From Aureimonas phyllosphaerae (GTDB lineage Bacteria; Pseudomonadota; Alphaproteobacteria; Rhizobiales; Rhizobiaceae), in the NCBI RefSeq assembly GCF_900113065.1, contig NZ_FOOA01000001.1, positions 124,001-188,000 on the forward strand: 64,000 nucleotides of DNA, given 5' to 3'. Below the pieces are notes generated by a model. It was not told the DNA's origin and made no database searches. It saw nothing but the letters and a program-made list of their open reading frames with translations. The position numbers and the translations under genes were made by a program. Shown here piece after piece: positions 8,071 through 25,468 of the stretch (positions are counted from its first letter, which is position 1; every line of letters starts with the position of its first letter).

Positions 8071-9471
8071 TTATCCGCCTGACCGCCGGCCCGGCTCCGC
8101 ATGCCGCGAACACACGACGAGACGTCGGGCACCACGGGTGAAGGCCACGTATAGGTTCTTGGGCGACAGCTCGTCGGCATCGAGCACCACAGCGACGTCG
8201 GCCTCCAGCCCCTTCAGCAGCAGAGTGCTTCCGACCGCGCGCCGGGGAAGTTCGCGGCCGAGGTGGCGGTTCGCCTCGCGCACGCGGACGACGGACGCGC
8301 GGAAGTCACCGTCCGGGCAGTGCCGTAGGGCCTGAAGGCAAGCTTGATGGATCGTCGGACGGTATACCCTGACGTCAGGTTGCCCCGCGATCCGCATGAG
8401 GAGTTCCGCCGCCGCCTGCGGATGCCTGTCCCTCTCGAAGGTCAGCGCCGCCGCCTCGGCATCGGACGGTGCGCTGCGCTGGCGGCCGCTGCGCAACGTG
8501 CCAAGCCGTTTGAGGAAGGCGCCCTGCCCGACCCCCGTCATCACGCTCGCGGCGAATGCGAGGATGGTGTCCGTGGCGTCGGGCGATCCGAAGTCGAGAC
8601 AGGCCGCGAAGCGCATCAGGTCCCTCAGCTCCACCCCCTCGACGGTGACGGCCCTGTGCGCCCGGCTGGCGAACCCATGGCGGACCGACGCCTTCTGGCC
8701 ATGGCCGATGATCAGCACACGGCCGTTCTCGGGCGCGCGCGTGTTGCATGCCCCCAGCCGCTTCCGATGGTCCTCCGCGCCGCCGTCGAGACGGACCCAT
8801 TCGACGCCCCTCACCCCGCGGAGGTCAGGCCGGAGTCCCGTAGCGAGCCGTTCCCGCGCGTCGAGCAACCAGTGCCCGAGCGGCTCGGCGCCCGCATTGA
8901 TCCAGCGCCATGGCTTTCGGAGGGTGTGCGCCTCCGGAAAGGCCCGCAAGGCCTGGCCGTCCCAGTCCACGATCGGGTCGTCGTCGGCGAAGTCGAAGAT
9001 CGCCTGCATCGGGTCGCCGAGGACGGCGGTCGGCAGGACGTCGGCGAGCCCGACCGCCAGTGAATGCTGGAGCCGCGAGCAATCCTGGTACTCGTCGATC
9101 ACAACCCTTTCGTAGGTGGACGCGAGGATGTCGCAGAGATGTCCGCTGCGGATCAGCGCGTCCGCTGCGGCGCGGATCAGCGGGTAGTCCGGCTTGGCGC
9201 CGAGGACGAGAGGGTCATGGCCGCTTCGAGCTGGAAACGTCGAGATCAGGCGCATGGCCCAGCCGTCGATCGTCGACACCCGGAACGCACGGGGAGACAC
9301 GCCGTCGCGGGCCGTGCGCGCCCGCAGGGCAGCCGCGCCGGCGTTGGTGTGCGTCAGGACGAGTATGGGCAGGCGGCCGCGGTGCTGCTTGAGGGCAGCG
9401 GCGATCAGCTCCGTCTTCCCGCATCCCGCCGGCGCAACGACGGAGCCCCTTTCGATCGAGAGCAGGTCCAT
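8071..9471 (-). CDS. GajB-like UvrD/Rep-type helicase (Gabija-like)
   Basis: 466 residues. Superfamily-1 helicase motifs in order: Walker A APAGCGKTEL (about residues 13-22), TLTH-like VLTHTNAGAAAL, Walker B VVIDEYQDCS, motif III-like AVLGDPMQAIFDFA, and motif VI-like LYVAFTRGARRLVVC near the C-terminus. It is shorter than UvrD/PcrA, as GajB is. The start lies six bases after the stop of the OLD-nuclease gene, the fixed arrangement of Gabija and of class 2 OLD/helicase pairs. In Gabija GajB senses DNA ends and NTP depletion and supports GajA. This assignment rests on domains and pairing, not on a similarity search. Confidence 0.82.
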   Translation of the reverse strand: MDLLSIERGSVVAPAGCGKTELIAAALKQHRGRLPILVLTHTNAGAAALRARTARDGVSPRAFRVSTIDGWAMRLISTFPARSGHDPLVLGAKPDYPLIRAAADALIRSGHLCDILASTYERVVIDEYQDCSRLQHSLAVGLADVLPTAVLGDPMQAIFDFADDDPIVDWDGQALRAFPEAHTLRKPWRWINAGAEPLGHWLLDARERLATGLRPDLRGVRGVEWVRLDGGAEDHRKRLGACNTRAPENGRVLIIGHGQKASVRHGFASRAHRAVTVEGVELRDLMRFAACLDFGSPDATDTILAFAASVMTGVGQGAFLKRLGTLRSGRQRSAPSDAEAAALTFERDRHPQAAAELLMRIAGQPDVRVYRPTIHQACLQALRHCPDGDFRASVVRVREANRHLGRELPRRAVGSTLLLKGLEADVAVVLDADELSPKNLYVAFTRGARRLVVCSRHAEPGRRSGG

Positions 9472-9477
9472 GCCGCC

Positions 9478-11193
9478 CTAAGCCCCCGCGAGCCACCCGA
9501 AAACGTCATTCACGACTTTCACGAACTCGGGGTCGGCGGACGACAGGTCCGGTCCCACGACGTCCGACGCGACGTCCTGCATGTCGGTGATCGTCTTGAA
9601 CCACTTGCCTTTGTTGGCCGCCTTGCCGAGGAAGGCACGCGTTTCCCGATCAAGGGCGCCGCAAACGATGTCGAGTTCCACGTTGTCCAGCGTCGTCTTG
9701 CCGTTCGACAGCGAGCGGATGTTGCTGTCGACGTGTTCCCGGGTCCGGCAAGATGCGGCAGCGTCCAGCATGCTGCCGACCGCGCCGTCGGTCAGTGCGG
9801 CGAAAAGTTCGTCCTCGGTCGCGTTTCCCTGGCGCCATGCAAAAGTCACGCCGCCGCTTCGCGCGAAGGCGGCTGCTTCGGTAGGGTCGGGTTCCTTGTC
9901 CCGATCACGCAGGATCGCGGTCCGGTAACCCAAGGCCTGGAATGCTAATGCGCGGCGATACGTGTTCTGCCCATTGCCGTCCACGAAGGCGACGCCGAGC
10001 GCGCCGGCCGGCGCCGAACCTCCGGCAGTGCGGAAACGGTCCAATCCCCGGACGAGGCCGATCTCGGTCGGCCCCTCGCACACCAGCACGGTTCGCGAAA
10101 GGAGGGCCTCGGAACAGGCGCGCACTGCCTTCTGCATCTCCTCTGTCGCCGCGACGCGCCGCAAGCTGGCGATCCCCTCGCGCGACCGACGCGCGACATG
10201 CAACTGTCCGACCGACAACTCCTTGACCACGACAGGCGAATGGGTTGTCGCGAAAACCTGTAGCGGCTCCCTCCTGTCCGCGGCGCCGAGTTCGGACAAC
10301 AGGCTGTGGATGCGGTGCGGCTCGAGGCCATGCTCGAGTTCGTCGACGAGGACGATGGAGGAACCGGATCCCGCCTCGCGCTGCATCCCGGCGACGAGGA
10401 GCCGGGACGAGCCGAGTCCCAACCCCTGGAGCGGAACGCCACCCTCGTCGTGAAGGGAGATGGTGCCGTTGCCGAACGCCATCGACCGGGCGTCGAGCAT
10501 CGCGGTGACCCCGTCGCCGACAGGGACGCCCAGCCGTACGGAGAGCGCGTGGACAGATGCCAGTGCCTTGGCGAGGTCGCTGCCCGCCTCGGTTCCCAGC
10601 GACGACCTCGTCTGGCGCGCGGCGCGCGACACGGCGGCCGAGACGTCCGCCCGCTCGTCGGAGAGCCTGTTCAGGATCGAGCCGCGCGACCAGCCCAGGT
10701 GGTGCCCCCCCGCGCCGGAGAGGCGCGTCGGGGCAAGCTTGAGCCTGTCCCGCCAAGAGAGCGACCTCTCGACGCCCGCACGCGTCGCGCGGTCGGACAC
10801 GAGGCACCAACGCGGCTCGAGGTCGTCGCCCACGCGCAGCTCGACGGTGAGCACCGTATCGAGGCCGTTGCCGGGCTCGTCCTCGACCGATCCCAGCAAC
10901 GGGTCGTAGCCCCGCAGATGGTGTCCGTGCGCCTCGAAGGACTGCAAGTCGGGAGGCAGATCCCCCACGGTCGCCCGGATCGCGACGGATCGGTCGCAGT
11001 CCAGGCCGTGGAAGTCGGAGTCCGTGAACTGGGGATTGCGCCGTGCCCCGAGGCACAGGTCGATGGCGTCCAGCACCGTCGACTTCCCTGCGTCCCCAGG
11101 CCCTACCAGGCAGTTGAATCCCGGCGACGGATGCCACTCAAGGCCGCGGATCCCGCGGAAGTTCTCGATCTCCAGTTTCCGTATCCTGGCCAT
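9478..11193 (-). CDS. GajA-like OLD-family ATPase/Toprim nuclease (Gabija-like)
   Basis: 571 residues from ATG 11193 (MARIRKLEIENFRGI). The N-terminal ABC-type ATPase has Walker A VGPGDAGKST (about residue 31-40), signature GLGLGSSRLLVAGM, Walker B IVLVDELEHGLEP and the H-loop TTHSP. The C-terminal Toprim nuclease has the acidic Glu in LVCEGPTEIGLV and the DxD in AILRDRDKEP. This domain order defines OLD nucleases; adjacency to the UvrD-like gene makes it class 2, the GajA type, which cuts DNA to block phage. The upstream extension of the reading frame to 11388 has no domain content and is not used. Confidence 0.85.
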   Translation of the reverse strand: MARIRKLEIENFRGIRGLEWHPSPGFNCLVGPGDAGKSTVLDAIDLCLGARRNPQFTDSDFHGLDCDRSVAIRATVGDLPPDLQSFEAHGHHLRGYDPLLGSVEDEPGNGLDTVLTVELRVGDDLEPRWCLVSDRATRAGVERSLSWRDRLKLAPTRLSGAGGHHLGWSRGSILNRLSDERADVSAAVSRAARQTRSSLGTEAGSDLAKALASVHALSVRLGVPVGDGVTAMLDARSMAFGNGTISLHDEGGVPLQGLGLGSSRLLVAGMQREAGSGSSIVLVDELEHGLEPHRIHSLLSELGAADRREPLQVFATTHSPVVVKELSVGQLHVARRSREGIASLRRVAATEEMQKAVRACSEALLSRTVLVCEGPTEIGLVRGLDRFRTAGGSAPAGALGVAFVDGNGQNTYRRALAFQALGYRTAILRDRDKEPDPTEAAAFARSGGVTFAWRQGNATEDELFAALTDGAVGSMLDAAASCRTREHVDSNIRSLSNGKTTLDNVELDIVCGALDRETRAFLGKAANKGKWFKTITDMQDVASDVVGPDLSSADPEFVKVVNDVFGWLAGA

Positions 11194-11538: not shown

Positions 11539-11694
11539 CTACAACTCGACACGCTCGGCCTCGAGCTTTCCCGGTGCGGTTCCCCTGTTCACAACGAGCG
11601 CCTCAAACTGCTGATTGGTGATCACGACCCACGCTCGCCGACAGGGACGGTCAAACTCGTTGGCGCAACGATCGCGAGCCAGCCGGTACGTCAT
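11539..11694 (-). CDS. Small hypothetical protein coupled to the FtsH-like gene
   Basis: A 51-codon frame (MTYRLARDRCANEFDRP... ending EAERVEL) whose ATG overlaps the stop of the AAA+/M41 gene by four bases (ATGA at 11691-11694). The overlap is the main argument that it is translated. The product is basic at the start and acidic at the end, with two cysteines and no membrane segment. It could be a small regulator, substrate or antitoxin-like partner of the protease. I do not recognise a family. Confidence 0.4.
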   Translation of the reverse strand: MTYRLARDRCANEFDRPCRRAWVVITNQQFEALVVNRGTAPGKLEAERVEL

Positions 11695-13661
11695 GGCGCC
11701 GCTGAGGAGCTGAGAGGTGACGCAACGTCGACCCCCAGGGCGAACTCCTGCGCCTCGACGAGCCGCGCGGCCACACGTTCGACATCCGGCCTTCGCCGCT
11801 CGACGATCAGCTTCGCCTCTGTCAGGCACCTCGTCAGCATGTCTTCGACCCGTCTCGACAGGTCGAGGTCGTCCAAGGCAGCGACCCCGTCCTTCGGCAT
11901 CGACGACAGTCGCTCGCCAAGGCCAAGCGAGCGCTGCGCCGACCGCGCAAGCTTCGTCGCCCTGACAAGGTCCGCATCCGCGCTGCCTCCCGAGAGGGCG
12001 CCCCTTGAGCCGAGGACGACCTCCTCCGCCGCGAGGCCTGCCATGAAAACCATGAGTGTCGCCTCCAGGCTTTCCCGCGTACTGTCAAACCCCTCGTCGA
12101 CCCTGAAGTCGGTCTTGTTCTCCTTGCCGTTCCGAACGCGGCGCCGGACCGACGCGCCGGTTGGGACGAGGCCCGAAACGGCGGCCAGTTCCAACCCGAC
12201 GACAAGGTGCCCAGCTTCATGGACACATGCCCGCCGGAACGACGCCTCGGAGAGTTCGGTGCCCTTCGGCAGGGCAGTCCAGAGATCGGCCTCAAGCAGG
12301 GACCTGGTGTCCTGCCGGGCAGCGGCTCGAGCCTCGCGCACGAGTTGCGCCAGCACTGCACCTGAAGCCTCGCCGATTTCGTCGGCGAGGCTTTGGAGGT
12401 CGACGTCGGCCAGGTCCCCCCGAAGGTGGTGTCGGAGAATTGCGACCCGCCCTGCGACGTCGGGAAGGGTGATCTCGACGATGCGACCCAGCCGACCCGG
12501 CCGGAGCACCGCCCGGTCGATGGCGGCGATGTGGTTGGTTGCCGCGACGACCACGACGCCGCCGCGGCCGACGGTGCCGTCGAGGGATTCCAGGAGACCG
12601 TTGACGACTTGGCGCTGGTAGGAGGCGTGGTCTCCTAACGGCTCTTCGCGGTTCCCCACGGAGTCGAGCTCGTCGATGAACAGAACGCACGGGGCAGCCT
12701 TCCGAGCCTCGTCGAAGGCGGCGCGAAGCGCCTTGAGCAGGTCTCCCAGATGGCCCTTGGCCTGCCACGAGGCGAAGGAATGCGAAAACAGCGGGACGCC
12801 GCAGGACCCCGCCAGCGCGCGCGCGAACAGCGTTTTTCCCGTTCCCGGCGGCCCGTGGAGGACGGCACCGTTCTCCACGTCGCTCCACGGCAGTGAGCCA
12901 TCGCGGTAGCGGGCTAGGTCGGCAGCCAGGGACAGGCCCCATCGCTGGGCTTCGCCCATGCCCGGCATGTCTTCGAGACGCTCGGGATGCCTTTCGTTGG
13001 TCGATCGGGTTGGCCGGGTAGCTCCCGCCTTCTTGGTCCGCTTGTCGTCCTGCGGACTTGGCTTCCTGTCCCCGTTCGACTTGACGGTTCGCCGCAGGCG
13101 CCCGGCGACGGTCCACATGCGCTCGCGGGACGCCCCCGGCCTCAAGACGAGGTTGAGGTACGTGAGCGGCAAGGCCGACAACCGCGCCACGAGCGCCGTG
13201 TCGGGCAGGAACTTGCCGATCTCCTCCACGAACGCCTCGACAGTCCCTTTGCGGTCGGCGAGCGGCAGGACGGCGTCGGCGACCGCTTCGACGACGGTGG
13301 GCACGTCCGCTCGGCGCCGGCAAAGGACGATAACGGTACGCGTGGCGACGCTGGCCTCGTTCAGAAGGCGCTGGACATAATCCGGACGCTGGGCATCCAA
13401 GTCCGTCCAGTCCCGCACCCTGGCTTCCACGCTCCAGGCATCATCCTCGGTTCCGCCGATCAGGTCCTGCGCGGCGAGGTTGAGGATGGCCGCGTCGTCG
13501 GGACGAACCCCGTAGACGACGACCAAGCTCGCCTCCCGCGACAGCGCCTTCGGAAACCCACCTTGGGTGAACGTCGCACGTAGGAGTTCGTCCGCGATCC
13601 TCGTCGCTGGCATCAGGCGTCCGGCGATCGAGTTGGGTTCGATGTCGAGGCGCCTAGACAT
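11691..13661 (-). CDS. Soluble FtsH-like AAA+ ATPase / M41 zinc protease
   Basis: 656 residues. An N-terminal region of about 230 residues has no membrane helix, unlike housekeeping FtsH. It is followed by an AAA+ domain with Walker A GPPGTGKT (about residue 268), Walker B CVLFIDELDSV and second region of homology ATNHIAAIDRAVLRPGRLGRI. The C-terminal peptidase M41 domain has the zinc motif HEAGH (about residue 480), with a likely third ligand Asp in GGSADADLVRATKLA. All catalytic residues look intact. Its start overlaps the preceding 111-residue gene by eight bases. In this defence-type island it may degrade a regulator or phage target in the cytoplasm; that role is inference. Confidence 0.85.
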   Translation of the reverse strand: MSRRLDIEPNSIAGRLMPATRIADELLRATFTQGGFPKALSREASLVVVYGVRPDDAAILNLAAQDLIGGTEDDAWSVEARVRDWTDLDAQRPDYVQRLLNEASVATRTVIVLCRRRADVPTVVEAVADAVLPLADRKGTVEAFVEEIGKFLPDTALVARLSALPLTYLNLVLRPGASRERMWTVAGRLRRTVKSNGDRKPSPQDDKRTKKAGATRPTRSTNERHPERLEDMPGMGEAQRWGLSLAADLARYRDGSLPWSDVENGAVLHGPPGTGKTLFARALAGSCGVPLFSHSFASWQAKGHLGDLLKALRAAFDEARKAAPCVLFIDELDSVGNREEPLGDHASYQRQVVNGLLESLDGTVGRGGVVVVAATNHIAAIDRAVLRPGRLGRIVEITLPDVAGRVAILRHHLRGDLADVDLQSLADEIGEASGAVLAQLVREARAAARQDTRSLLEADLWTALPKGTELSEASFRRACVHEAGHLVVGLELAAVSGLVPTGASVRRRVRNGKENKTDFRVDEGFDSTRESLEATLMVFMAGLAAEEVVLGSRGALSGGSADADLVRATKLARSAQRSLGLGERLSSMPKDGVAALDDLDLSRRVEDMLTRCLTEAKLIVERRRPDVERVAARLVEAQEFALGVDVASPLSSSAAP

Positions 13662-13989
13662 CGGACACCCCCGCCGCGGCGTTGCCCAAGCGCCAGAAGC
13701 GGCTGGCGGTTCGGGCGAAACCTTGTTCGAGGGACAGAAGGCACAGCGGGGACGTCACGGCAGCCTTTCGTCCGGAGACGTGTGGATGGCCGTGGGGGCG
13801 TCCCACGAGACAAGGGACCTTGCGCGCCGCCGGGGACCAGTCGTCGAGAAGGGGCGCGGCGGCAAGGATGTGACCCGGGGGCAAGCCGTGATCGCGAAGG
13901 TGGCAAAGGTCGCGCAGGAGGTCGGAAATTTGCTCGATCTCGGTGTCGAGCTGGTCCCGCCACCCATGGGCGGTCAGAAGGATGGTCAT
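13654..13989 (-). CDS. Small conserved protein, possibly DUF6634-like
   Basis: 111 residues from ATG 13989. An open frame extends upstream to 14430, but that part is low-complexity Pro/Arg/Ser shadow sequence. Features: an N-terminal helix (DTEIEQISDLLRDLCHL), LAAAPLLDDW, then PCLVGRPHGHP, TSPLCLLSLEQGFARTASRFWRLG. This pattern reminds me of small rhizobial proteins annotated as DUF6634, but I cannot confirm it. The 3' end overlaps the AAA+/M41 protease start by eight bases (13654-13661), so the two are translationally coupled and probably act together, for example as adaptor and protease. Confidence 0.65.
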   Translation of the reverse strand: MTILLTAHGWRDQLDTEIEQISDLLRDLCHLRDHGLPPGHILAAAPLLDDWSPAARKVPCLVGRPHGHPHVSGRKAAVTSPLCLLSLEQGFARTASRFWRLGNAAAGVSDV

Positions 13990-14191
13990 GGGGTGTGCTC
14001 TCGCTTTGGCCGCTCGCGGCGGCGCGGTACCGACGGGGGTGGGCGTCAGTTGGCGAGGCATATCCGTGCCGTGGGGTTGGCTAGACCCGGCGTCGCTCGG
14101 TGCCGCAGGACCCGGCCAGGTGTCGGTCCCCTGTGCGGCGCCTGCGGGGCGCTTGCCTCCGCCAAGCCTGCCTTCGGAACGAACCGCACGG

Positions 14192-14848
14192 TCAGTCCAC
14201 CTCGGCCGCCAGGCGGCCAACCCTGAGGCGGAACTCGTCGGCGAACGCGTCCACGCGCTCCCTGGCCGACGGCATCTCGGTGATTGCGTAGGGCAGCCGC
14301 CTGAAGACGCCGACCTGGGTCGCGGCATAGGCGGACCATGCCGCGGCCTGCCAGACGAGCACGCTGCCGTCGCCCTCGAGGTGCCAGTCCTGTACGTAGG
14401 CTGCAAGCGCGGCTTCCGCGGCAACGGCATGCGCGGCGTCGATGTCGCCCAGCAGTGCGGCGTAGATCACGCAGCGGAGGCGAATGCTACCGTCGGCGTC
14501 CGCTTCGGACGACAGGCGGCATGCCCGCAGCGCACTCAGGATGGCGGCGTCGTCCGCCTCACCGTCCTGCTTGCCGACGCGAGATGCCTCCGCAAGCCGG
14601 CGCAGCGAAGCTGCGGCCTCCTCGTCCGTCAGCTCTACAAAGGCGCTATCCACGAATCCTACGATGTCGCGCCTGATGTCGTTCCCGAGGAGCGGATGGC
14701 CGCGCAGGAGCTCGTCGGCGGACGGAAGGCGTGCCCCGAGCGAAGTCTCCCGACGGTTCGCCTCGTCCGCATGGCGCGCGGACCTCCGGTCGCGGCGTGC
14801 CTGGGCCATTCCAAGGATCTCTTCGTGAATGGATGGGACTGGGGGCAC
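14192..14848 (-). CDS. Hypothetical protein, first gene of protease operon
   Basis: 218 residues from a GTG at 14848 preceded by GGAGGT seven bases away, a strong ribosome site. The N-terminal 45 residues are Arg-rich (GMAQARRDRRSARHADEANRR). The rest is mostly alpha-helical, alanine- and acid-rich, without membrane segments or catalytic motifs that I can name. It is separated by about 200 bases from the 111-residue gene but on the same strand. It diverges from the Xre-type regulator across the repeat operator at 14953-15000. I do not recognise the family. Confidence 0.7.
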   Translation of the reverse strand: MPPVPSIHEEILGMAQARRDRRSARHADEANRRETSLGARLPSADELLRGHPLLGNDIRRDIVGFVDSAFVELTDEEAAASLRRLAEASRVGKQDGEADDAAILSALRACRLSSEADADGSIRLRCVIYAALLGDIDAAHAVAAEAALAAYVQDWHLEGDGSVLVWQAAAWSAYAATQVGVFRRLPYAITEMPSARERVDAFADEFRLRVGRLAAEVD

Positions 14849-15039: not shown

Positions 15040-15369
15040 ATGGGCGATGCTCAGGCGCAGATGCCCTTCGATCCGAACCTTCTCCAAGCCGCTCGGCTGC
15101 TGGCCAAACTCTCCCTCGACGAGTTGGCGGAACGGTCCCAGGTGTCGCGCCGCTCGCTCCTGAACTTGGAGGCGGGCAATCCCGACTGCCTGCTCTCCAC
15201 GTTGGAGATCTTGAAGGAGGTCTTGGAGGAGGAGGGCGTGATCTTCTTGGGGGAGACGGAGTCGCACGGTCCCGGCGTTCGCGTCTCTCGCGAAACCGGT
15301 ATGGATTGGACGCGGAAACGAGCTGACCAGCGCCGCAGCCGGATGAACCAAGCCGAACCCGAAACCTGA
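15040..15369 (+). CDS. Xre/Cro-type HTH regulator
   Basis: 109 residues from ATG 15040, with AAGGA six bases upstream. The HTH covers about residues 12-60: LLQAARLLAKLSLDELAERSQVSRRSLLNLEAG, then STLEILKEVLEEEGVIFLGE, the usual Cro/C1 fold with a short beta wing. The C-terminal 40 residues are charged and unstructured. It is divergent from the hypothetical/DUF/FtsH-like operon across a repeat operator, so it most likely represses that operon and itself. Such single HTH regulators are common control genes of defence modules. Confidence 0.82.
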   Translation: MGDAQAQMPFDPNLLQAARLLAKLSLDELAERSQVSRRSLLNLEAGNPDCLLSTLEILKEVLEEEGVIFLGETESHGPGVRVSRETGMDWTRKRADQRRSRMNQAEPET

Positions 15370-15825: not shown

Positions 15826-16971
15826 CTAGAGCCCCAGCGAGAGCTGCGGGCCATCATCCGTCACGGCCTCGTCGGCCTCGGTGTTGAGACCCGAAAGGGA
15901 CACGCCGAGGAGACGGACGGGCCTCGGCATGGGGAAAAGACCCGCGAGCAGCTCTCCGCTGATCCGGGCGATGCCGTCCCTACCCTGGACCTCGTCCTGC
16001 ACCGACCGGCTTCGCGTGATCTGCTGGAAGTCCTGGTACTTGACCTTCAGGGTGACGGTACGACCGCGTATCCCGGTCCTCGCGCAATGGTTCCATACCT
16101 TGTCGATGATTGGAGCCAGGACTTCCGTCATCTCCTCGTAGGAGGAGAGGTCACGCTCGAAGGTGTTCTCGGCGCCGACGGACTTCCTGATGCGATCCGG
16201 GCGGACCGGCCGATCATCGATGCCTCGGGCGATCCAATAGTAGTGGCTCCCCGACTTGCCGAAGTTTTGTCGAAGGGCTTCAATTGACATGGCCCGTAGA
16301 TCTAAGCCAGTGAAGATTCCGAGGCGATTCATCTTCTCCTCGGTCTTCTGTCCGATGCCATGAAACTTCCCGACCCGGAGACCCGCAACGAAAGACGGAG
16401 CCATATCTGGCGTGATCACGAACTGGCCATTCGGCTTGTTCTGATCGGATGCCATCTTGCTCAAGAATTTATTCACGCTGATACCAGCGGATGCTGTCAG
16501 GCTGGTTTCCTCCCAGATGCGAGTCCGTATCTCCCTCGCGATCTGGGTGGCGTACTCTACACCCTTCAGGTTTTCGGTGACGTCGAGGTACGCTTCGTCA
16601 AGCGACAACGGCTCGATCAAGGACGTGTACTCGGAGAAGATCGCCCTGATCTGGAGCGAGACCTCCTTGTACACGTCGAAGCGCGGCTTCACGAACACGA
16701 GCTCGGGGCACGAGCGCTTTGCGGAGACTGACGGCATGGCAGAGTGAACCCCGAAGCGCCTCGCCTCGTAGCTTGCCGCCGCGACCACGCCTCGTTCCCG
16801 CGATCCGCCGACAGCGACGGGTCGGCCGCGCAGCTCGGGGTTGTCCCTTTGCTCCACGCTTGCATAGAAAGCGTCCATGTCGACATGGATGACTTTGCGC
16901 TGACGCGTCGGCTTAAGGGGCGCATCCGACGAGAGTGCGGCCTGCGTATGGTCCGGGTCGGTGGCAGGCAT
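15826..16971 (-). CDS. dinB: DNA polymerase IV, island copy
   Basis: 381 residues from ATG 16971, chosen because GAGG stands seven bases upstream; GTG 17025 or ATG 17019 would extend it but lack a ribosome site. Y-family motifs are intact: VIHVDMDAFYASVEQ (metal-binding Asp), PLSLDEAYLDVT (catalytic Asp-Glu), the little-finger region KSVGAENTFERDL and TLKVKYQDFQQITRS. The C-terminus LSLGL could be a beta-clamp binding motif. Error-prone lesion-bypass polymerase. Its codon choice (for example AATAAATTC for Asn-Lys-Phe) is more AT-rich than the chromosomal dinB fragment next to it, consistent with arrival on the island. A LexA-like box lies upstream. Confidence 0.9.
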   Translation of the reverse strand: MPATDPDHTQAALSSDAPLKPTRQRKVIHVDMDAFYASVEQRDNPELRGRPVAVGGSRERGVVAAASYEARRFGVHSAMPSVSAKRSCPELVFVKPRFDVYKEVSLQIRAIFSEYTSLIEPLSLDEAYLDVTENLKGVEYATQIAREIRTRIWEETSLTASAGISVNKFLSKMASDQNKPNGQFVITPDMAPSFVAGLRVGKFHGIGQKTEEKMNRLGIFTGLDLRAMSIEALRQNFGKSGSHYYWIARGIDDRPVRPDRIRKSVGAENTFERDLSSYEEMTEVLAPIIDKVWNHCARTGIRGRTVTLKVKYQDFQQITRSRSVQDEVQGRDGIARISGELLAGLFPMPRPVRLLGVSLSGLNTEADEAVTDDGPQLSLGL

Positions 16972-17174: not shown

Positions 17175-17237
17175 GTCCGAAAAACCCGAACGATCTCAAT
17201 GGTCTCTCTCTCAGTTGACAGCCGAACCTACTTATAA

Positions 17238-17876
17238 AAGTTCCTCGCCAAGCTCGCCTCCGACCATCGCAAGCCCGACGGGCTCTTCGTGGTGACGCCC
17301 GCGATGGGCGCGGCCTTCGTGGAAACGCTGCCCGTCGGCCGCTTCCACGGCGTCGGCCCGGCGACCGTCGCCAAGATGGAGCGGCTCGGCATCCACACGG
17401 GCGCCGACCTCAAGGCGCAGTCCCTCGCCTTCCTGCAGGAGCGCTTCGGCAAGATCGGCCCCTACTATTACGGCATCTCGCGCGGCATCGACGAGCGTCC
17501 GGTGCGCGCCAACCGCATCCGAAAGTCGGTCGGGGCCGAGAACACGTTCTCCGCCGATCTTCATACGCCGGACGCGATGCGCGAGGCGCTGGGGCCAATC
17601 ATCGACAAGGTCTGGCGGCATTGCGAGGGGGCAGGAACGCGGGGGCGGACCGTGACGCTGAAGGTCAAGTATGCCGACTTCCGCCAGATCACCCGCGCCC
17701 TGTCGTCCGCCGCGCCCGTTGGCTCGCGTGCCGAGATCGAGCGGGCGGCCTTTCGCCTGATCGACGATCTGCCGGCCGATCCACGCGGTGTCCGCCTTCT
17801 CGGCGTGACGCTTTCGGCGCTGACCAACGAAACCATGTCGGCCCCACCGCCCGTCCAGTTCGCGCTGCCGCTGTGA
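17238..17876 (+). pseudogene. dinB: Truncated chromosomal dinB (C-terminal half)
   Basis: In-frame DinB sequence starts at codon AAG 17238 (KFLAKLASDHRKPDG) and runs to the normal end (PPPVQFALPL). The N-terminal roughly 150 residues, including the catalytic Asp and Asp-Glu motifs, are missing. The codon before is TAA. The nearest start is GTG 17289, which could express only the thumb and little-finger part. The remaining region keeps GRFHGVGPATVAKMERLGI and RKSVGAENTFSADL. The break marks the right boundary of the island, which carries its own intact dinB in opposite orientation. Confidence 0.85.
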
Positions 17877-21296: not shown

Positions 21297-23309
21297 TCAT
21301 TCGAATTCGAGGATGACGAAGTCGGCGGGCAGGCTGTCGCCGACCGCCGCGTGCACCGCGCCGATCGTCGCGGCCTTCGGCGCCCTGAGGTTGTTCTCCA
21401 TCTTCATCGCCTCGATGGTGCCCAGCACCTGCCCCGCTTCCACACGATCTCCCCGCTTCACACCGAGCCGCGTCAGGAGGCCCGGCATCGGGCAGATCAA
21501 AAGGCGCGACAGGTCCGGCGGCTCCTTGTGGAGCATGTGGCGAGACAGTTCGAACACCCGCGGCAGGGAAACGCGAACCTCGTGGGTCGCGCCGCGCGTC
21601 GTCATGCGCGCGCCCGTCAGGGTCGGCCGGATGCGCAGCGACAGGTCCTCGCCCTCGAACCGCAATCGCGCCATCGCCTCGCCGAACCGCCAGTCGAGGG
21701 CGACCGGCACGGGTCCGGATCCATCGATCGAGACACGACGCTCGCCGCCTTCGCCGGAGACGACGACCTCGAAACGTTGGTCGCCGAGTTGCGCGATGCG
21801 CGCGGCATTCGGCCGGATCGGCGGCCCGAGCTGACCGTCGATCCGGGCATCGCGATCGGCCCGGAGAACCGAGACGAGAACGCCGGCCACCGCAAGCTTT
21901 CGCGCCAGCGCCGCGTCCGGTTCGGTGCCGGTGAAGCCTTCAGGATACTCCTCCGCGATGAAGCCGGTGGTAAGGTGCCCGTCGCGAAATCGCGGGTGCT
22001 GCATGATTGCGGAGAGGAAATCGATGTTGTTGCCGAGGCCGCTCAGCTCGAAGCGGTCGAGCGCCTCGACCTGACGGTTGATGGCTTCGCCCCGCGTCGA
22101 ACCGTGGGTCACGAGCTTGGCGATCATCGGGTCGTAGAACATCGAGACCTCGCTGCCCTCGGCGACGCCGTCGTCGACGCGAACGCCGTCGCGGGACGCC
22201 GGCGGGCGATAGCGGGTCAGGCGGCCGGTCGACGGCAGGAAACCGCGATACGGGTCTTCCGCATAGATGCGGGTCTCGATCGACCAGCCATCGAGGCGAA
22301 CGTCGTCCTGACCGATCCGCAGCGGCTCGCCCGCCGCGACCCGGATCATTTCCTCGACGAGATCGAGCTCGGTGACCATCTCGGTCACCGGATGCTCCAC
22401 CTGAAGACGCGTGTTCATCTCCAGGAAATAGAAACTCTTTCCCGTCGGATCGGCGCCGGAGACGATGAGCTCGACCGTACCCGCCGAATGGTAGCCGACG
22501 GCCTTGGCGAGCGCGACGGCCTGTTCGCCCATCGCCTGCCGCATCTCGGGCGTGACGAAGGGCGACGGCGCTTCCTCGACCACCTTCTGGTGCCGCCGCT
22601 GGATCGAGCACTCGCGCTCGCCGAGGTAGAGGACGGTACCATGCTTGTCGCCGAGCACCTGGATCTCGATGTGGCGGGGACTCTCGATGAACTTCTCGAT
22701 GAAGACGCGGTCGTCGCCGAAGCTCGCCAGCCCCTCACGCCTGACCGCCTCGAAGCCCTCGCGCACGTCGCCCTCGCCCCAAGCGAGCCGCATACCCTTG
22801 CCGCCGCCGCCGGCAGAAGCCTTCATCATCACGGGAAAGCCGATCTCGGACGCGATCCGCACGGCATCGTCCGTGCTCTCGATCTCGCCGAGAAAGCCGG
22901 GAACGACGTTGACGCCGGCCGCCTTCGCCAGCTTCTTGGACTGGATCTTGTCGCCCATCGCCGCGATGGCGCCGGGCGGCGGGCCGACGAAGGCGATGCC
23001 GGCGTCCTCGCAGGCGCGCGCGAAGCTCTCGCGCTCCGAGAGGAAGCCGTAGCCGGGGTGAATGCAGTCGGCGCCGGTCGCCTTCGCGGCCTCGAGAATG
23101 AGGTCGGCGCGCAGGTAGCTTTCCGCCGCGGGCGCCGGCCCGAGGCGCACGGCCTCGTCCGCCATACGAACATGCGGGCTCAGCGCGTCGGCATCGGAAT
23201 AGACGGCGACGGTCGCGATGCCCATCCGCTTGGCGGTGCGTATGATGCGGCAGGCGATCTCGCCTCGATTGGCGATCAGGATCTTACGGAACACGGGGGA
23301 CGCTTTCAT
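21297..23309 (-). CDS. pccA: Propionyl-CoA (acetyl-CoA) carboxylase alpha subunit
   Basis: 670 residues from ATG 23309, which overlaps the mutase stop by four bases. The biotin carboxylase domain starts [24 protein letters not shown], with the ATP-grasp glycine loop [11 protein letters not shown] and [16 protein letters not shown] middle BT-like domain follows. The C-terminal biotinyl domain has the acceptor lysine in EAMKMENN. The subunit carboxylates biotin with bicarbonate and ATP for the PccB partner. The reading frame extends upstream to 23915 only as a shadow of the mutase gene. Last gene of the propionate operon. Confidence 0.93.
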
Positions 23310-25468
23310 TCTGCGGCGCTGCGATCGCCGGTGTCGCCGACCGGCGGCATGTTGTGGCCGAGGAGGCGCAGCACTTCGGCCGCCGCCTCCACGAGATTGG
23401 TGCCGGGCCCGAAGATCGCATGGACACCGGCGCGGCGAAGCGCGTCGTAGTCCTGCGCCGGGATGACGCCGCCGGCCACGATCTTGATGTCGGAGCGGCC
23501 GAGTTCGCCGAGGCGCGCGATCAGGTCCGGGATCAGCGTCTTGTGGCCGGCCGCCAGTGACGAGGCGCCGACGATATCGACCTCGCGCTCCACCGCGAGA
23601 GCCGCGGCCTCGTCCGGCGTCTGGAACAGGGGGCCCGGCACGATCTCGAAGCCGAGATCGCCGAACATCGAGGACACGAGGTTGGCGCCGCGATCGTGCC
23701 CGTCCTGCCCCATCTTGGCGACCAGCATGCGCGGCCGACGCCCGAGGCGCCGCTCCGTCGCCGCCACGGCGTCCGTCAGACGCGTCCAGCGGGGATCGTC
23801 GGCGTAGGCTCCGCCATAGACGCCGCTGACCGGCCGAGGCTGCGTATCGAAACGGCCGAAGACGTCTTCCATCGCCGCCGAGATCTCGCCGAGCGTCGCA
23901 CGGGCTCTCGCGCATGCCACGGCCAGCTCGAGGAGGTTGCCGCGGCCGGCAGCTCCTTGGCGCAGGGCATCCAGCGCGGCCCTGACGGCCTCGGCGTCGC
24001 GCTCGGCCTTGACCCTTTCGATCCGCGCGACCTGCGCCTCGCGGACGGCATGGTTGTCGACGTCGAGAATCTCGATCGGCGCCTCGGCCTCCAGCCGGTA
24101 GCGATTGACGCCGACGATCACGTCCTCGCCGCGGTCGACCCGCGCGGCCTTGGCCGCCGCGGCTTCCTCGATCATCGCCTTCGGCCAGCCGGCCGCAACG
24201 GCCTTGGCCATCCCGCCCTCAGCACGGATGCGCTCGATGAGCGCCCAAGCCCCGTCCACCAAGGCCTTGGTCAGGCTCTCGACGTAGTAGGAGCCACCGA
24301 GCGGATCGACCACCCGGGTCATGCCCGTCTCCTCCTGGAGGACGAGCTGCGTGTTGCGCGCGATGCGGGCGGAGAAGTCGGTCGGCAGCGCGATCGCCTC
24401 GTCCAGCGCATTGGTGTGAAGCGACTGCGTGCCGCCGAGCATCGCCGCCATGGCCTCGATCGTGGTGCGCATGACGTTGTTATAGGGGTCCTGCTCGGTC
24501 AGCGAGACGCCGCTCGTCTGGCAGTGGGTGCGCAGCATCTTGGAGCGCTCGTCCTTCGCCCCGAGCTCCGTCATCGCCCGGTGCCAGAGGACGCGCGCGG
24601 CGCGCAGCTTGGCGACCTCCATGAAGAAGTTCATGCCGATGGCGAAGAAGAAGGACAGGCGCCCGGCGAACTTGTCGATGTCGAGGCCGGACGCCACGCC
24701 GTAGCGCACATATTCCATGCCGTCGGCGATGGTGAAGGCGAGCTCCTGGAGCTGCGTCGCCCCCGCCTCCTGCATGTGGTAGCCGGAGATCGAGATCGAG
24801 TTGAACTTCGGCATCTCGGCGCTGGTATAGGCGAAGATGTCCGAGACGATCCGCATCGAGGGCTCGGGCGGATAGATATACGTGTTTCGGACCATGAACT
24901 CCTTGAGGATGTCGTTCTGGATGGTCCCGTCAAGCCGGTTGCGGGGCACCCCCTGCTCCTCGCCGGCGACGATGAAGAAGGCGAGGACCGGGATCACCGC
25001 CCCGTTCATGGTCATCGACACCGACATCTCGCTCAAGGGGATGCCGTCGAAGAGGATCTTCATGTCCTCGACGGTGTCGATCGCGACGCCCGCCTTGCCG
25101 ACGTCGCCGACGACGCGGGGGTGATCCGAATCGTAGCCGCGATGGGTGGCGAGGTCGAAGGCGACCGACAGGCCCTTCTGGCCCGCCGCGAGATTGCGGC
25201 GATAGAAGGCGTTGGACTCTTCGGCGGTCGAAAACCCGGCATATTGCCTGATCGTCCAGGGGCGCCCGGCATACATCGAAGCGCGCACGCCGCGTGTGAA
25301 AGGCGCGAAGCCCGGCAGGCCGGGATCCCAGCTGGCGACGTCCTCGGCGGTGTAGAGAGGCTTGACCGTGATCCCCTCGGGCGTCTCCCAGTCGAGATCG
25401 CGGCCCTTCACCTCGCGCGCCGCCAGCGCGTCCCAGTCCCGCAGCGAAGGCCGCTCAGTGTCCGCCAT
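23306..25468 (-). CDS. Methylmalonyl-CoA mutase, single-chain
   Basis: 720 residues. The catalytic TIM barrel includes [21 protein letters not shown] and [15 protein letters not shown]. The C-terminal cobalamin-binding domain has [14 protein letters not shown] (DxHxxG, the lower-axial His) followed by [10 protein letters not shown] and [11 protein letters not shown]. Converts (R)-methylmalonyl-CoA to succinyl-CoA using adenosylcobalamin. Single-chain length is the usual bacterial alpha-like form. It overlaps the epimerase gene by 14 bases and pccA by four, so all are one transcript. No MeaB/ArgK chaperone gene is adjacent. Confidence 0.95.

Follow-up and report, generated by a model that had tools for sequence, protein, structure and literature searches.

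The closest described counterparts of the protease treated here are FtsH, in which an AAA+ domain precedes an M41 peptidase domain, and IetAS, a defence system consisting of an AAA+ ATPase and a subtilisin-like protease. We analyzed a 64,000-nucleotide stretch of the Aureimonas phyllosphaerae genome (contig NZ_FOOA01000001.1, positions 124,001 to 188,000; hereafter the window), whose minus strand encodes a 218-residue protein (s218), a 111-residue protein (s111) and an FtsH-like AAA+/M41 protease. An initial annotation had called this set a candidate undescribed defence or regulatory module. We propose, with moderate confidence, that it belongs to an undescribed, modular and mobile alpha-proteobacterial gene system that joins a DUF6634-like s111 to a soluble AAA+/M41 protease and acts in conflict or defence. 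The evidence supports an FtsH-like protease that is soluble, is carried by a mobile island and has Gabija as its neighbour.

The protease shares with FtsH the order of its domains (Pfam AAA, 109.9 bits, followed by Peptidase_M41, 36.4 bits against a cut-off of 29.9) and its motifs, namely Walker A (GPPGTGKT), Walker B (VLFIDELD), HEAGH and, downstream, SGGSADADLVRAT, whose Asp we take, by analogy with FtsH, to be the third zinc ligand. It differs in having operon partners and in its N-terminus. A 19-residue hydropathy scan found no N-terminal membrane anchor, unlike in the genome's own FtsH, with a peak of 1.58 (residue 532) versus 2.46 (residue 8, near the N-terminus) in the latter, so that the annotated combination of intact Walker A/B and HEAGH motifs without a membrane helix holds. 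The FtsH equivalog TIGR01241 of NCBIfam reaches only 193.6 bits, against a cut-off of 600, and covers residues 263-588. The likeness to IetAS lies in the protease-based logic and in the AAA domain, which scores 89.5 bits against the PADLOC IetA models. However, the M41 protease is part of the same chain, the score against NCBIfam is 89.7 bits where 510 is the cut-off, and no IetS is present among the six window proteins scanned. Lacking a membrane anchor, an equivalog score and an IetS, the protease falls outside both FtsH and IetAS on these features. Another known system, Gabija, directly adjoins the module. The initial annotation spoke of a Gabija-like pair; GajA and GajB are true Gabija proteins by their PADLOC scores (Table 1), yet they belong outside the module, since in A. 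ureilytica (L011), where the module sits at the same dinB end, neither was found next to it. We found no description of such a module in the titles and opening lines of abstracts on FtsH-like proteases and defence or on islands and dinB, and no paper naming DUF6634 in the literature searched. The word undescribed in the initial annotation therefore stands for that literature, and its defence part is only partly supported, as set out below.

Of 151 genomes sampled from the family, 18 have a protease relative with an E-value of 1e-80 or lower. In a tree of 40 protease sequences, each with HExGH and at least 540 residues, deep nodes are weak, and we rely solely on the clade that contains the window's protease, whose support is 1.0. 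Within it, the partners switch between s218 with Xre and a ~200-residue protein, c4. The source genome itself carries a second set elsewhere, with the order c4-s111-protease and with 59% protease and 52% s111 identity to the window. The same genome also holds a tandem AAA+ gene pair (G000:C15:48157-51229), the second gene of which is a 40% relative of the protease region. Matches to the protease were found in 132 phage records; among the matches listed (15), coverage is at most 65% and identity 30-36%, and a phage origin was set aside on that account.

The small-protein link to the protease is real, mainly for s111. This protein aligns to the core of Pfam DUF6634 (PF20339) with 24.2 bits, below the cut-off of 27. 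Its homologues in L058 (38.7 bits) and L061 (49.2 bits) exceed the cut-off, and further homologues carry the DUF6634 annotation. To count partners, we used 40 loci chosen from s111 profile hits after removing those already found by protease or s218 searches, so that known protease neighbours lie largely outside the count. A protease gene lies within 3 kb and on the same strand for 27 of the 46 s111 copies in these loci, and a protease or a second AAA+ ATPase within 3 kb for 30 of 46; the profile was partly derived from protease-adjacent copies and may favour such copies. Over all loci, s111 stands directly before a protease or M41 gene 24 times, with an overlap of 8 bases in nine cases and of 4 bases in five. 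The 20 control regions described below gave no match to the module. As s218 and Xre also recur beside protease genes, the small proteins do keep their link to the protease in other genomes. An alignment profile finds s111 relatives in 39 of the 151 family genomes and in 7 of 385 class genomes; Pfam's own DUF6634 model is narrow, finding 6 of the 385 at E 0.001. No s111 match was present in the phage collection. One 3.4-Mb genome (G078) has seven DUF6634-like copies (contigs C3, C19, C42, C47, C50 and C60), some of them on contigs of 5-6 kb.

Around this core the parts are interchangeable, including the M41 protease as one gene or split, a second ATPase, a metallophosphoesterase and the ~200-residue protein. 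The order of the window, with Xre divergent from s218-s111-protease, is found in L011 and L018, and the same arrangement without s111 in L015 and L017. Six loci (L013, L016, L020, L072, L075 and L080) have c4-s111-protease. In many loci devoid of s218, the c4 protein (for example L097:975-1592 and L075:7215-7838) is encoded upstream of either s111 or the protease, and the two copies scanned had no Pfam match. Xre is divergent from s218 and the second AAA+ ATPase in L088 and L089, with s111 added in L090, and with s111 and a metallophosphoesterase in L092. In L095 Xre is divergent from s111, the second ATPase, an AAA/M41 protease in two frames and a metallophosphoesterase. AAA and M41 reside on separate genes in eight loci (L137, L138, L140, L142, L145, L147, L150 and L151), and in four of these (L137, L145, L150 and L151) s111 lies between the halves. 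A Cereibacter plasmid protein (L061:4513-6330) combines a calcineurin-like phosphoesterase and DUF6634 in a single polypeptide. We considered the second ATPase as Lon-like and rejected this, as Pfam shows general AAA domains only and no protease domain in the two copies scanned. Upstream of protease relatives, two proteins without a Pfam family (L150:9840-10865 and L139:2886-3905) contain what we take, by eye, to be a PD-(D/E)XK-like stretch. Separately, L163 (7272-9857) and L166 carry consecutive DUF6634-like genes, two or three in number, accompanied by a phosphoesterase and a ~117-residue protein but by no AAA+ partner; the L163 set adjoins genes that by eye resemble replication and integrase genes.

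The behaviour of s218 is different. Searched against 1445 proteins, a profile built from free-standing s218 matches the first ~150-200 residues of ~515-residue AAA+ ATPases in L092, L093 and L095 (E 1.2e-23 to 1.1e-22) and, at E 1.2e-11, the N-terminal part of L094|4. Because of these matches to ATPase N-termini, the s218 domain is, by sequence similarity, one that occurs either on its own or joined to an AAA+ motor. Absent from the profile matches are the ATPases of L088-L091, which adjoin or neighbour a free s218. A 457-residue protein adjoining a DUF6634-like gene (L057:6498-7871) holds a tandem pair of s218 domains. Relatives of s218 were found in 10 of the 151 family genomes, with no match in the plasmid collection. 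The initial annotation had seen s218 and s111 as a sensor/adaptor pair for the protease. A pair dedicated to this protease is not supported, as each occurs without the other and s218 corresponds to the N-domain found in another AAA+ ATPase.

These arrangements suggest how the module might work. The protease would assemble into an FtsH-like cytosolic ring in which the N-terminal region (residues ~1-220) replaces the membrane anchor. Since s111 is the part that keeps to the motor, or sits between the motor's halves, and would be co-produced with it from overlapping genes, it may serve as an adaptor or gate that chooses the substrates of the ring, and s218 may be a second, exchangeable recognition part. 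Xre would hold the operon low until a signal releases repression, upon which the active machine would unfold and degrade an invader target, or a host protein, and so halt infection. More tentatively, the module could represent a new modular class of alpha-proteobacterial defence in which a DUF6634 adaptor and the helical recognition domain s218 plug into exchangeable AAA+ motors and effectors, all swapped as cassettes from one mobile element to another. Motors would then be the soluble M41 protease, the split AAA/M41 form and the second AAA+ ATPase, and the metallophosphoesterase would be an effector. The company that DUF6634 relatives keep with AAA+ machines gives the family a testable role as an AAA+ protease adaptor. 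If the module defends cells, a soluble FtsH-type protease would join the known effectors, and recognition domains would be seen to swap between AAA+ motors.

The module is cargo at one end of an island, at its right dinB junction. A block of ~55 kb (C43, the window's contig, ~86,000 to ~141,300, in the window to ~17,300) is near-identical in three species (G000, which is the source genome, G541 and G548), with 0-2 differences per 2 kb between G000 and the other two except in a ~6-kb tract of G541, and the identity stops sharply at both sides. For metabolic genes outside the island (window 21297-25468), identity drops to 84% with G548 and to 82% with G541. Both island ends lie in dinB (G000:C43:85490-141876), with the halves of the resident gene 55.2 kb apart in these three genomes and 48.7 kb apart in G552. 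A full-length dinB sits ~0.2 kb inside the right junction in all four, 100% identical among the three and 93% in G552. Across 21 Aureimonas genomes, dinB is split in these four and has an uninterrupted match (63-67%) in ten others; six have a 37-41% relative only, and one has a match at a contig edge. The left end encodes a tyrosine integrase (51.9 bits) and a RecD2-like helicase, together with a weaker second integrase (16.9 bits, last 347 residues scanned) and a DUF6262-like protein (22.8 bits), both below cut-off. An excerpt on a Proteus plasmid region mentions xerC, recD, xerD and dinB together (PMC6737455). The annotated location inside an island is thus confirmed, and the module does not occupy a fixed chromosomal place, as the Aureimonas copies sit in several different surroundings and 8 of the 21 genomes, the source genome included, have a close protease relative (E 1e-150 or better). 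It is conceivable that the s218/s111/protease set serves the mobile element by controlled proteolysis, removing the Xre repressor or another regulator for excision or transfer. Xre is often the divergent partner, the module lies at the island end, and some relatives adjoin genes that by eye resemble integrase or plasmid-replication genes (L095, L163). However, many s111-protease pairs have no adjoining Xre, and the differing surroundings of the Aureimonas copies also speak against such a role, which we consider unlikely.

We then asked which genes accompany the module. From 64 module loci outside the plasmid records, 337 neighbour proteins were collected, including a few protease fragments, and 300 were scanned with PADLOC in two batches. 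In the first (E 1e-20), among the matches listed (25 of 55 families), were pAgo, QatA, PDC-S73, Drt2, a DNA methylase and the window's own GajB. In the second (E 1e-40), the matches listed (25 of 39 families) included three proteins matching methyltransferases, a Pycsar-type TIR effector, PycC, SduA, TerY, PDC-S15 and SIR2; a UvrD-type helicase was left uncounted. Controls were 246 proteins from 20 arbitrary regions in 20 genomes of the same sample. With the window's five proteins removed, ~14 of 295 neighbours versus 2 of 246 controls are read as defence proteins (Fisher p 0.009, an estimate), where each distinct family name counts as one protein, two names may share a protein and further families may add to the count. 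At 1e-40 or better the controls had two matches, a UvrD-type helicase and RT_UG29; among the first 147 controls, a threshold of 1e-20 added three proteins matching mad3 and three weaker families once each. In addition, HORMA and CBASS cyclase genes lie near a protease relative in Rhizobium; in Methylorubrum, a DUF6634-AAA-metallophosphoesterase set is flanked by genes for TIR proteins. The neighbours thus look modestly enriched in known defence genes. Of the defence setting proposed at the outset, the nearby defence genes are found; a defence role of the module itself is a candidate reading.

Several results weigh against a defence system built around s111 and the protease. Without the four methyltransferases the comparison becomes 10 of 295 versus 2 of 246 (p 0.074), and the count of ~14 is built on family names, not on identified proteins. 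As the controls are arbitrary chromosome, the enrichment may just reflect accessory DNA. Among the Pfam matches listed for the first 150 neighbours (25 of 118 families), most are ordinary regulators, transporters and enzymes. No PADLOC or NCBIfam defence model covers the protease beyond its AAA domain, and by gene calls the protease copies in L015, L018 and L091 appear split or truncated. For 16 of the 46 s111 copies, both AAA+ partners are missing within 3 kb; six of the 16 lie no more than 1.3 kb from the end of a contig or on contigs shorter than 7 kb. The predicted fold of s218 (AlphaFold2, pLDDT 85.3, pTM 0.83) gave no informative match. We nevertheless regard the module as probably a conflict or defence system. 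A less likely explanation than service to the mobile element is accessory protein quality control or a stress response, for instance to metals, that spreads as a fitness gene. M41 enzymes are classic quality-control proteases, and the island carries genes that by eye resemble metal transporters. Yet the neighbours of the relatives are varied and some are known defence genes, and housekeeping proteases do not usually come with a divergent Xre or with small partners that are exchanged. A toxin-antitoxin-like addiction module, with one small toxic protein controlled by the protease or Xre, would fit the small proteins, the overlapping genes and the divergent Xre but is improbable, as the two small proteins are also found apart or combined differently, and neither matches a toxin family in Pfam, PADLOC or NCBIfam.

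Table 1. Genes of the module and its surroundings in the window
Feature	Coordinates	Strand	Remarks
s218	14192..14848	-	218 codons, GTG start; predicted all-helical; free homologue of the second-ATPase N-domain in sister loci
s111	13654..13989	-	111 codons; DUF6634-like; proposed protease adaptor
AAA+/M41 FtsH-like protease	11691..13661	-	656 codons; predicted soluble; 8-base overlap with s111
51-codon frame	11539..11694	-	ATGA-coupled to the protease stop; no relative outside identical copies; probably no gene
Xre-type helix-turn-helix regulator	15040..15369	+	HTH_3 23.8 bits (cut-off 23); divergent
GajA (Gabija neighbour)	9478..11193	-	PADLOC GajA 716.6 bits
GajB (Gabija neighbour)	8071..9471	-	PADLOC GajB 559.2 bits
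Full-length island-borne dinB	15826..16971	-	Pfam IMS 176.8 bits; near right end
3' part of interrupted resident dinB	17181..17837	+	Right island junction

The reading frames and lengths of s218, s111 and the protease, the overlap of the latter two and the divergent Xre gene are as first annotated. Because they are conserved in other loci, where Xre recurs next to s218 and/or s111, these four are no chance frames. The s111 frame is nested in a longer open frame (13654-14430), and the gap between s218 and s111 is 202 bases. The initial annotation had also counted the 51-codon frame to the operon. Its overlap with the protease stop is present, but the frame was passed over by the gene caller and, among 53 loci compared, has a relative only in identical copies of the window locus; it is probably no real gene and lies outside the operon. 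For GajA, the start is most likely at 11193, giving 571 amino acids, because the match begins at residue 66 of the 636-residue frame. A 100% identical protease with the same neighbours as in the window is present in sequence records of both A. jatrophae and Aureimonas sp. AU22.

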